Shown: in pieces, positions 14,534 to 19,059 of the stretch
How positions within the stretch are numbered: position 1 is the stretch's first letter
Layout of the letters: every line of letters begins with the position of its first letter
Assembly (NCBI RefSeq): GCF_000245015.1
Contig: NZ_JH600070.1
Location: 1,633,716-1,697,715 of the forward strand
Direction: 5' to 3'
Origin: Beggiatoa alba B18LD
GTDB lineage: Bacteria; Pseudomonadota; Gammaproteobacteria; Beggiatoales; Beggiatoaceae
DNA length: 64,000 bases
Notes under the pieces: model-generated
Told to the model about the DNA's origin: nothing
The model's input: the letters and a program-made list of their open reading frames with translations, nothing else
Databases searched by the model: none
Program-made: the position numbers and the translations under genes

Positions 14534-14623
14534 AAACCCACTCTCGATATACACTGTGTTTGTAAACAGAGAAAAATAACCGAATTCAACTGAGTAACAC
14601 CTCAGCAAACTGAGCGAAAAATC

Positions 14624-15154
14624 ATGACAAATACAGATACCACCCTCCAACTGGCTCAAAGTATCTTAGGTAAAACCACAGGGACTTTTATCTGCAACAC
14701 CGAAGAAGAAACTGCACAAGCCACCGTCACGATGATTAACCAAACAGACAGACAACTCGATATACTCACCCGCTATTTTGACCCAGCGATTTATGACACA
14801 GATGCCTGCGTTGAAGCCTTTGAAAGACTTGCCTTGAATAGTCGCCACTCACGCATCCGCATTCTGATTCAAGACACCAGCAAAATCTTGTACAAAGAAC
14901 ATCGAGTATTAAATCTAGGAAAACAACTAGCCAGCTATATAGAATTTCGTAGCCCAACGGGAAAATACCGCACGTGGTCAGAAAACTTCCTAATCGCCGA
15001 TAAAATAGGCGTTATCCATCGCCCACATGCCGACAGCCACAAAACCCTTATCAGTTTCAACGATGTCAGCATTGTTCAACAACTTGCCCCCCTCTTTGAT
15101 ACCATCTGGGCAGAAGCAACCCTAGACCCCAATATGCGCAATTTTGTGATATGA
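14624..15154 (+). CDS. DUF7931-like cytoplasmic protein
   Basis: A 176-residue protein with no signal peptide or membrane segment. It contains ILTRYFDPAIYDTDACVEAF and SRHSRIRILIQDTSKILYKEHRVLNLGKQL, the general layout of small PLD-fold proteins that have lost the HKD catalytic motif (annotated as DUF7931 in my recollection). It is often found near acetyltransferase or RNA-processing genes in other gammaproteobacteria. No function is assigned. It sits between mazG and a Nudix gene on the same strand. Confidence 0.55.
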   Translation: MTNTDTTLQLAQSILGKTTGTFICNTEEETAQATVTMINQTDRQLDILTRYFDPAIYDTDACVEAFERLALNSRHSRIRILIQDTSKILYKEHRVLNLGKQLASYIEFRSPTGKYRTWSENFLIADKIGVIHRPHADSHKTLISFNDVSIVQQLAPLFDTIWAEATLDPNMRNFVI

Positions 15155-15840: not shown

Positions 15841-16013
15841 TCCAAAATCGAGAGATTCTGAAAATAAAACAGAGACCTGCTAGGCTTTAAAAGCCTAACA
15901 GGTTTTTTTGTCTGAATCAGAATTCACAGAATTTCCAGAATTAGCAGAATTAAAAAGCGTGATTCACCTTAACCTGAGTTCGGCGAGTTTCTTTTAAAAA
16001 GACAAGGGCTTGT
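15841..16013. repeat. Type-1 element, copy C (rearranged or truncated)
   Basis: Order on the plus strand: degenerate left end, hairpin with T-run (15874-15909), GTCTGAATCAGAATT iterons, AAAAAGCGTGATTCACCTT spacer piece, then an internal end motif AACCTGAGTTCGGCGAG (15971-15987) followed by TTTCTTTTAAAAAGACAAG and TTGTCTGG. This looks like the remnant of two abutting elements rather than one intact copy. Confidence 0.8.
15874..15909 (+). terminator. Hairpin terminator inside type-1 copy C
   Basis: ACCTGCTAGGC pairs with GCCTAACAGGT (one mismatch), followed by seven T residues. It lies 34 bp after the Nudix stop codon and is correctly oriented for it. Confidence 0.7.
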
Positions 16014-16052: not shown

Positions 16053-16081
16053 TTTACTGTAATTTTATACAGTAGTATAAT
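16053..16081 (+). promoter_or_regulatory. Sigma-70 promoter overlapped by a LexA (SOS) box
   Basis: -35 TTTACT (16053-16058), 17-bp spacer and a perfect -10 TATAAT (16076-16081), 35 bp before the helicase start codon. TACTGTAATTTTATACAGTA (16055-16074) lies between and over the -35; it has the CTGT-N8-ACAG core and matches the E. coli SOS consensus at all flanking positions. Repressor bound there would block the promoter. Confidence 0.8.
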
Positions 16082-16116: not shown

Positions 16117-19059
16117 ATGTTTTTTCGTAAACCTAAAAAGAAAATACCACCGACACAATTTAAATGGGTTTTAGATAATGCAGAAATCTGCTTGCAACTG
16201 TTGCAAGGCGAAACCCTGCTCCCGTTAGATTCATGGATGCAAAAGACAGGACAACAGAGTTTTGCAGGGGTTTCTTTTCTCTTAGGTGAATTGGAAATTC
16301 AAGCCGATTGGGATGAAGCACAACGGACATTATTTGTTTTAGATAACAATACCTTAAAAACTAAAGCCGATTGGGTTGCGCGGTTAGCCCCTTATCAGGC
16401 AATTTGGTTAAATTTGCCCGCACCTGTGCCATTTATCCTCGATATTGACCACGAGGGCACATTAGACCAAGAAAAATTTCGTTTTCAATATCAGTGGTTA
16501 CGTGAAAATGGTCAACCACTGGTTATGCCAAAACAAGTGGGCGCGTTATTACAAGTTGGCTCACAAGTTTATCGACTCGCAGAACCGCATTTTTCTTTAA
16601 TTCAAGGCATGGAAGTCTTTAACGCAACACCCCCGCAAGCCATGGATGACCGCTTTTTAGCATGGGGTAAACTCAGTGAGTTTTTACCAGAAGATAGTGT
16701 GCAAGCCATTCAAACACATGGTTATTTACAAAAAACTAAAATTGCACATGCCTGTAGTTTTACCCTAGATATTCAAGAGGAAAATGGCGAATTTGTTTTC
16801 GACCCCGTTTTCATTAAAACCAAACCCAACCACGACCCGAACACTGCCGACTTTAGCATTGAGCCTGAAGCTTTATTAACTGATATATATAAAGAAACCT
16901 TTAAACAACGCTTTAAAGAATCACAACAAGCTCGCTCGCGTTATGTGTTGCAAGAAGGGTGGTATGTGGTTGTTGATGAACCTTTGCGCCAAGCTTTAGA
17001 AGTCGTGCATCGGTTTCAGAAAACTGACCACGCTACCCGCCGAGAATTTGCTAAAAATCCGCGTGCTTATCTGCGTGGCGTGTTGGGTGATAATTTAAAC
17101 GAGGAAGTGCTAGAAAGTTTATTCGTGGAAACCCGTGAATATTCGCAACGGGTGACAGAAATCGGGTTATGGGAGGCAAAAGTATTACCGTTGGCTCAAT
17201 TAGCCTCTGAAACATGGTTGCCCCCACAAGCAAACCCCGCCCGCCGTGCGCGTCCTAAAGAAGAGGATACGGAAGAGTTAACCCTCACCACCTCTGAAGA
17301 GGAAGAGGATAAGAATCGCCGTATTACTCTGAAAATCGACGATAATTTACACGCTTTAAATTATGTCAAACAAGATTGGCAACCCCGCGAACCCGCGCTA
17401 CCGTTACAAGCTCCTAGTGCATTAAAGTCGACGTTAAAACCGCATCAGGAATCAGGCTTACAATGGATGCAACAGCATTGGAATAGTGGCAGTTCAGGGT
17501 GTTTACTCGCGGATGATATGGGCTTAGGGAAAACCTTGCAGTCTTTAACGTTTATGGTTTGGCTCAAGGAGTCCATGCGGGCGGGCTTGGCGGAAAATTT
17601 GCCGATTCTCATCGTCGCGCCCACAGGGTTATTAAAAAATTGGGAACAAGAACACCAGATTCATTTTAATATGCCTGCTTTAGGGCAGTTATTGCGGGCT
17701 TATGGGCAGGATTTGCGCGATTTACGCACGACACAAGGCAGTGAATTATCGAAAGGCTTGCCATTATTAGATAAAGAACGCTTGCAACAAGCGGATTGGT
17801 TATTAACGACTTATGAGACCTTGCGCGATTATCAACACAGTTTTGCGGGTTTACATTTCAGCGCGATTATTTTCGACGAAGTGCAAAAGATTAAAACACC
17901 CGGTACGTTGATGACGGAAGCGGCTAAAGCGATGCACACGGAGTTTATTTTAGCGATGACAGGCACACCGATTGAAAATCGCTTATCGGATTTGTGGTGC
18001 ATTATCGACACGGTTTGCCCTGGTTATCTTGGCGATTTAAAACAATTCAGCGCGTATTATGAGAAAGACCGCGATAATATGTATGAATTAAAAGCTTATT
18101 TAACGCAAACGCCAAACGAACACACCCCGCCCATTATGTTGCGACGGATGAAAGAAGACCATTTAACAGGCTTCCCAGAGTTAGCCGTACATTTATTGCC
18201 AGAAAATCAGCAAACAGGCAGTATGCCCCCGTTACAAGCGGAGAGTTACGCGGGCATTATTCGCCAGCAGGTAGAGGGCGAGGCAAAAGCGGGCGCGGTG
18301 CTGGAAGCCTTGCAACAGTTGCGAAGTATTTCCTTACATCCGTATTCGCCGATAGAGTGGGAAAGTTTGTTAGAAGCGGAAAAAGCCGAAGCCCCGCCCG
18401 TTATCGAAACGCCCCCAGAAACAACGGTTGCAGACAGTCCCGACGCTTTATTGCAACAAGATACGGCTTATATTCAACAATCAGCCCGTTTATCGACGAC
18501 ATTTGCCTTATTAGATGAGATTCAAGCGAAACAAGAGAAAGTCTTAATTTTCTTAGAATCACAATATATGCAACGTTATTTAATGGGCTTGATTTATCGC
18601 CGTTATGGCATTAATCCGATGTTAATCAATGGCTCAGTCAATGGGCAAAAGCGTCAAGAACGGGTGAATCAATTTCAAAAGGCGGAAGGCTTTGACGTTT
18701 TTATTATTTCCCCGTTAGCGGGGGGCGTGGGTTTAACGTTGACTGCTGCAAATCATGTGATTCATTTAACCCGCTGGTGGAATCCTGCTGTTGAAGACCA
18801 ATGCACTTGTCGCGCGTATCGGATTGGTCAAACTAAAACCGTGCATGTTTATTACCCGCTCGCCATTCATCCTGAATTTAAAGAACATAGTTTCGACTGG
18901 CGATTACATAATTTGCTGGATAATAAACGCGCCTTAAGCCGTGATATGTTGCTTCCACCAATTGCACAAGAACAGGATATTCAGCAGTTGTATGAGGATA
19001 TTGTGCATGTGTCGGAGCAGGAGGAGCGTGAATTGATGGAAAGACCGCAGGCTGTTTAA
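16117..19059 (+). CDS. SNF2-family DEAD/DEAH-box ATPase
   Basis: A 980-residue Swi2/Snf2-type ATPase that should translocate on double-stranded DNA or remodel protein-DNA complexes. The N-terminal about 430 residues are family-specific. The motor follows: motif I DDMGLGKT (about 466-473), motif II DEVQ (587-590, where many members have DEAH or DEGH), motif III MTGTPIENR, and a C-terminal helicase lobe with LSTTFALLDEI, GGVGLTLTAANHVIHLTRWWNP and the arginine-finger motif CRAYRIGQ. An acidic linker (EEEEDKNRR) separates the halves. It is not RapA by N-terminal sequence. It is monocistronic and preceded by an overlapping LexA box, so a DNA-damage role is likely. Confidence 0.88.
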   Translation: MFFRKPKKKIPPTQFKWVLDNAEICLQLLQGETLLPLDSWMQKTGQQSFAGVSFLLGELEIQADWDEAQRTLFVLDNNTLKTKADWVARLAPYQAIWLNLPAPVPFILDIDHEGTLDQEKFRFQYQWLRENGQPLVMPKQVGALLQVGSQVYRLAEPHFSLIQGMEVFNATPPQAMDDRFLAWGKLSEFLPEDSVQAIQTHGYLQKTKIAHACSFTLDIQEENGEFVFDPVFIKTKPNHDPNTADFSIEPEALLTDIYKETFKQRFKESQQARSRYVLQEGWYVVVDEPLRQALEVVHRFQKTDHATRREFAKNPRAYLRGVLGDNLNEEVLESLFVETREYSQRVTEIGLWEAKVLPLAQLASETWLPPQANPARRARPKEEDTEELTLTTSEEEEDKNRRITLKIDDNLHALNYVKQDWQPREPALPLQAPSALKSTLKPHQESGLQWMQQHWNSGSSGCLLADDMGLGKTLQSLTFMVWLKESMRAGLAENLPILIVAPTGLLKNWEQEHQIHFNMPALGQLLRAYGQDLRDLRTTQGSELSKGLPLLDKERLQQADWLLTTYETLRDYQHSFAGLHFSAIIFDEVQKIKTPGTLMTEAAKAMHTEFILAMTGTPIENRLSDLWCIIDTVCPGYLGDLKQFSAYYEKDRDNMYELKAYLTQTPNEHTPPIMLRRMKEDHLTGFPELAVHLLPENQQTGSMPPLQAESYAGIIRQQVEGEAKAGAVLEALQQLRSISLHPYSPIEWESLLEAEKAEAPPVIETPPETTVADSPDALLQQDTAYIQQSARLSTTFALLDEIQAKQEKVLIFLESQYMQRYLMGLIYRRYGINPMLINGSVNGQKRQERVNQFQKAEGFDVFIISPLAGGVGLTLTAANHVIHLTRWWNPAVEDQCTCRAYRIGQTKTVHVYYPLAIHPEFKEHSFDWRLHNLLDNKRALSRDMLLPPIAQEQDIQQLYEDIVHVSEQEERELMERPQAV

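Follow-up and report, generated by a model that had tools for sequence, protein, structure and literature searches.

A predicted LexA operator at a ZorD-family SNF2 gene of Beggiatoa alba, with zorB-like and zorC-like genes encoded elsewhere in the genome

The window analysed here is a 64,000-nucleotide stretch of Beggiatoa alba B18LD (contig NZ_JH600070.1, positions 1,633,716 to 1,697,715). In it a forward-strand gene at 16117-19059 encodes a 980-residue ZorD-like SNF2 ATPase with SNF2-rel_dom and Helicase_C domains, behind a promoter that carries a LexA (SOS) box. The box, TACTGTAATTTTATACAGTA, is present as an exact, unstranded 20-mer at 16055-16074, 42 bp ahead of the start of the open reading frame (ORF), and spans the end of the -35 element and nearly the whole spacer between -35 and -10. 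The promoter, also on the forward strand, consists of a -35 hexamer TTTACT (16053-16058), which agrees with TTGACA at four of six positions, and, after a 17-nt spacer, a -10 hexamer TATAAT (16076-16081) that is kept in a second genome of the genus (G001). An earlier note on this DNA had claimed the LexA-box match, which we confirm, and had called the promoter textbook; that description suits the -10 hexamer and the spacing, while the -35 hexamer is merely fair. A terminator-like hairpin with a T run (15876-15909, forward strand) lies 3′ of the upstream Nudix gene and, by ending that gene, suggests that the SNF2 gene is a transcription unit of its own.

The earlier note had also read the product as a DNA-damage-inducible remodelling or translocation enzyme of the SNF2 type. 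The SNF2 ATPase of 980 residues stands, but it is no generic remodeller: both sequence and tree place it in the ZorD clade. The protein scored 1000 bits with the PADLOC ZorD model, and its ATPase motifs are intact (Walker A DDMGLGKT at residues 466-473, FDEVQ at 586-590 and motif VI RAYRIGQTK at 899-907); the RapA family model gave 31 bits, short of its cut-off of 576. Among PDB chains the protein is closest in sequence to 8qy7, ‘DEAD/DEAH box helicase’, which we take to be E. coli ZorD. Outside the family, the proteins most similar over residues 87-964 come from plasmids of Azospirillum oryzae (43% identity) and Zymomonas (32%), each encoded by the fourth gene of a MotA-like, OmpA-like, EH_signature and helicase cluster, that is, zorABCD. 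In a tree of 26 SNF2 proteins the Beggiatoa protein groups with these operonic ZorDs (100/99), inside a set that also holds the operonic ZorDs of Klebsiella and Polymorphobacter (100/100); Zymomonas forms a long branch, and its exact placement is less sure. The second SNF2 protein of the genome, which matches DpdE-type models best, falls apart from the ZorD set. From sequence similarity and tree together, we assign the protein to the ZorD family with high confidence.

In the usual description of Zorya the genes form a single operon, and ZorAB acts as the sensor that recruits effectors. The Beggiatoa gene has mazG, DUF7931, Nudix, MFS and GBBH-like genes as neighbours; zorA, zorB and zorC are not adjacent to it, and it is not part of a zor operon. 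Two relatives of the Zorya partners are encoded far away, a zorC-like gene at C2:2.252 Mb (328 bits as ZorC) and a zorB-like gene at C2:3.445 Mb (287 bits as ZorB), the latter between ribD-like and fabI-like genes. The zorC gene, as the zorD-like gene, is under purifying selection in comparison with G001. An EH_signature (ZorC) gene was found once per genome in all four carriers of an orthologue of the SNF2 gene and in none of 14 control genomes, the comparison being one of orthologue carriers with these controls. Genes of the zorB type were found in the B. alba genome and in G015, where zorB and zorC lie ~1 kb apart. No LexA box was found near the zorB-like or zorC-like genes. Two side observations concern DUF7931: a DUF7931 gene lies directly beside zorC in G006 (L160:9686-10189), and in the window a weaker LexA-like site, CACTGTGTTTGTAAACAGAG, lies at 14552-14571, 52 bp before the DUF7931 gene (14624-15154), with a score of 13.2 bits (near chance) on the matrix described below.

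The genome encodes a single LexA-family protein (family model, E<=0.001), which aligns with that of E. coli over its full length and has the recognition helix SPNSAEQHL where E. coli has SPNAAEEHL. Boxes were found at the promoters of lexA (ACATGTATATAATGACAGTA) and recA (TACTGTAAAAATAAACATAT), the two genes at which the earlier note had proposed to look, and also at ssb (TAATGTATGAATAAACAGTA, retained in G001) and uvrA (TGCTGTTTATATTCACATTG). G001 has boxes at recA, ssb, uvrB and, weaker, lexA; the one at its uvrB-like gene is at C1:2978072-2978089 (L145), 36 bp ahead of the start. Across the family a recA box is present in the genomes with full lexA (G000, G001, G007, G014, G015, G016 and G019), and recA of G005 and G006, in neither of which lexA was found, has none. 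The SNF2 gene is placed in this predicted regulon because its operator resembles the species' own LexA boxes and lies within the promoter. The related boxes and their counterparts in G001 support the LexA control that the earlier note had supposed; judged from these sequences, we regard it as highly likely.

Some further features of the family's SOS genes were seen. Full-length lexA was found in few of the genomes G002-G022. A Y-family DNA polymerase (PF00817) was not found in B. alba or in G001, despite lexA and a boxed recA in each, and both apparently have an SOS response without translesion polymerases. A 602-bp duplicate with 99% identity has one copy after lexA (L005:1022-1393), where it holds a 123-residue ORF with a winged-helix-like end, and another at C2:2542791-2544278 (L195:791-2278), which stands behind tandem LexA-type boxes of its own (17.0 and 15.7 bits) and is followed by a 329-residue membrane-type ORF; this may be an undescribed SOS unit. 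In three genomes (G003:C1:1675509-1677128, G008:C68:23848-25800 and G011:C67:79909-81399) the recA matches are split into two halves within one long frame of 536-682 residues, an intein-like arrangement.

Comparison with G001 leaves a clear footprint at the SNF2 promoter. A 31-bp segment that starts immediately ahead of the box and runs to the end of the -10 hexamer is identical at 30 positions, spacer bases included and with the 20-mer itself unchanged, while the rest of the 276 upstream bases cannot be aligned and the neighbouring genes differ. The SNF2 gene itself has diverged from its G001 orthologue to a synonymous rate (dS) of ~1.2, with a ratio of non-synonymous to synonymous rates (dN/dS) of ~0.06, which indicates purifying selection. 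No box lies in the 350 bp upstream of any other SNF2 gene examined.

The box might nevertheless be a chance match, or just part of a strong promoter, without any control by LexA. Base composition alone predicts about 0.4 exact matches per genome (our own estimate), and the 4.27-Mb genome has two copies of exact TACTGT-N8-ACAGTA, the second of them inside an ORF. Across the genome the E. coli palindrome is no commoner than its reversed control (8 versus 14 sites with one mismatch, 139 versus 253 with two), so that the match alone is weak evidence; we dropped this count and used instead a matrix built from 15 SOS sites of the family, the SNF2 site excluded. The training sites were chosen for their likeness to CTGT-N8-ACAG, and the matrix is therefore not fully independent of the consensus. 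On it the SNF2 box scores 23.1 bits, more than all but one of the 15 training sites; no random site reached this value in five simulated genomes. The box ranks first in the 2.11 Mb (49.6%) of the genome scanned, ahead of ssb (21.0 bits) and recA (19.0 bits), and the runner-up in the 64-kb window has 13.2 bits. A regulon-derived pattern, TACTGT-N6-A-N-ACAK, has nine matches against two for the reversed control, a count that is purely descriptive because the SNF2 box was among the known sites from which the pattern was derived; its intergenic matches in B. alba are all at lexA, recA, ssb or the SNF2 gene. The matrix score, the position inside the promoter and the conservation of box and -10 hexamer in a second species put the box above chance, and coincidence is a very improbable account of it. 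Palindromes of the CTGT-N8-ACAG type are not unique to LexA, and the site could be read by another repressor (e.g. a phage-type or other S24/helix-turn-helix repressor). Such an assignment seems equally improbable given the single LexA-family protein and the same type of box at lexA's own promoter, recA and ssb. As far as sequence can tell, the 20-mer very probably functions as a LexA box.

The main rival accepts LexA control and takes the ZorD-like protein for a domesticated translocase of SOS repair or fork remodelling that no longer works with ZorA, ZorB and ZorC. It would explain why the gene shares its regulator with recA, ssb, uvrA and lexA, and why it stands alone among housekeeping-type genes (MazG, DUF7931, Nudix and MFS); it also agrees with the low dN/dS and with the failure to find zorA in the part of the genome searched. 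A parallel exists in Corynebacterium glutamicum, where the SNF2-family helicase gene cg1316 rises together with lexA and recA under ciprofloxacin (PMC5055667), LexA control not being shown there. Against this rival, zorC-like and zorB-like genes are kept, and zorC is under purifying selection and occurs in four of four orthologue genomes. Such a pattern is more in keeping with Zor genes retained as a set than with a repair enzyme acting by itself, and we hold the domesticated repair enzyme to be rather unlikely.

Several observations weigh against a LexA-governed Zorya effector. A search of 49.6% of the genome gave no convincing match to zorA, and Pfam detects no nuclease domain in the SNF2 protein. 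The protein reaches 382 bits of the 1500 required by the NCBIfam ZorD equivalog; the operonic ZorDs of Azospirillum and Zymomonas also stay below this cut-off (328 and 317 bits), so the shortfall is no ground for rejecting ZorD. The 66%-identical orthologue of G015, a genome that has LexA, shows no box in 405 bp upstream, and neither does the 59%-identical orthologue of G006, in which lexA was not found. With a box in B. alba and G001 that is missing from these two orthologues, the predicted LexA control of the ZorD-like gene is lineage-specific, limited to one genus and two species. Finally, a Zorya-like system whose genes are not kept in one operon may have lost its Zorya function.

In our assessment the locus is best explained by a Zorya-like system whose genes are dispersed, or by a domesticated form of ZorD, with a LexA-repressed effector. 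That a LexA operator governs a ZorD-family effector gene whose partners are encoded elsewhere we consider probable on balance, and we lean to a similar degree towards a ZorD-like protein that still works in Zorya-type defence. In undamaged cells a LexA dimer lying over the -35/-10 spacer would keep expression of the zorD-like gene low. RecA filaments would form on single-stranded DNA arising from damage, possibly also from phage replication or phage nucleases; activated RecA would bring about self-cleavage of LexA, and the zorD-like gene would be derepressed along with lexA, recA, ssb and uvrA. The product would be a ZorD-family SNF2 translocase, the effector type of Zorya type I, acting with partners encoded apart. 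Since the zorB-like and zorC-like genes have no LexA box nearby, only the amount of the DNA-acting effector would be under SOS control, and such a limit could reduce self-harm and allow a higher dose when DNA is attacked. The operator thus suggests that DNA damage turns a ZorD-like defence protein on. A bolder version, which we offer tentatively and rate at somewhat under even chances, is a Zorya out of its operon, with the parts of sensor type, ZorB, ZorC and presumably ZorA, expressed independently and with ZorD wired to SOS, its firing power being set by damage, including that caused by phage.

If this holds, a SNF2 ATPase is added to a bacterial SOS regulon, anti-phage defence and the DNA-damage response are directly linked, and the scattered Zorya genes with a LexA-ruled effector constitute a natural experiment on the control of effector dose. 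In the open-access literature searched, no paper was found that describes a SNF2 or Zorya gene under LexA control. As cited in PMC11890865, ZorAB of known Zorya recruits partners that act on DNA. A preprint on Zorya II deals with a different Zorya type, and with SOS in general, not the control of zor genes.

With RapA/HepA and the other housekeeping SNF2 ATPases of bacteria the Beggiatoa protein shares the SNF2 ATPase core, whereas its RapA model score is low and the tree sets it among the ZorDs. The E. coli recA gene likewise has its LexA box over the -35/-10 spacer, and in B. alba, as in an E. coli-type LexA/SOS regulon, CTGT-N8-ACAG boxes also mark lexA, recA, ssb and uvrA; the Beggiatoa regulon differs in having a ZorD-family SNF2 gene as a predicted target and in the lack of a detected Y-family polymerase. 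Unlike Zorya type I, the Beggiatoa gene lies outside a zorABCD operon, with its candidate partners at 2.25 and 3.45 Mb and zorA not found in the part of the genome searched, and it has a LexA box; its product differs from type I ZorD in staying under the NCBIfam equivalog cut-off and in having no recognised nuclease domain. It resembles the type I ZorDs of E. coli, Klebsiella and the Azospirillum/Zymomonas-type operons as a SNF2 helicase matching in domain order and size, with intact ATPase motifs and similarity to the Azospirillum and Zymomonas proteins over residues 87-964, and, as in Zorya type I, zorB-like and zorC-like genes are present in the same genome.
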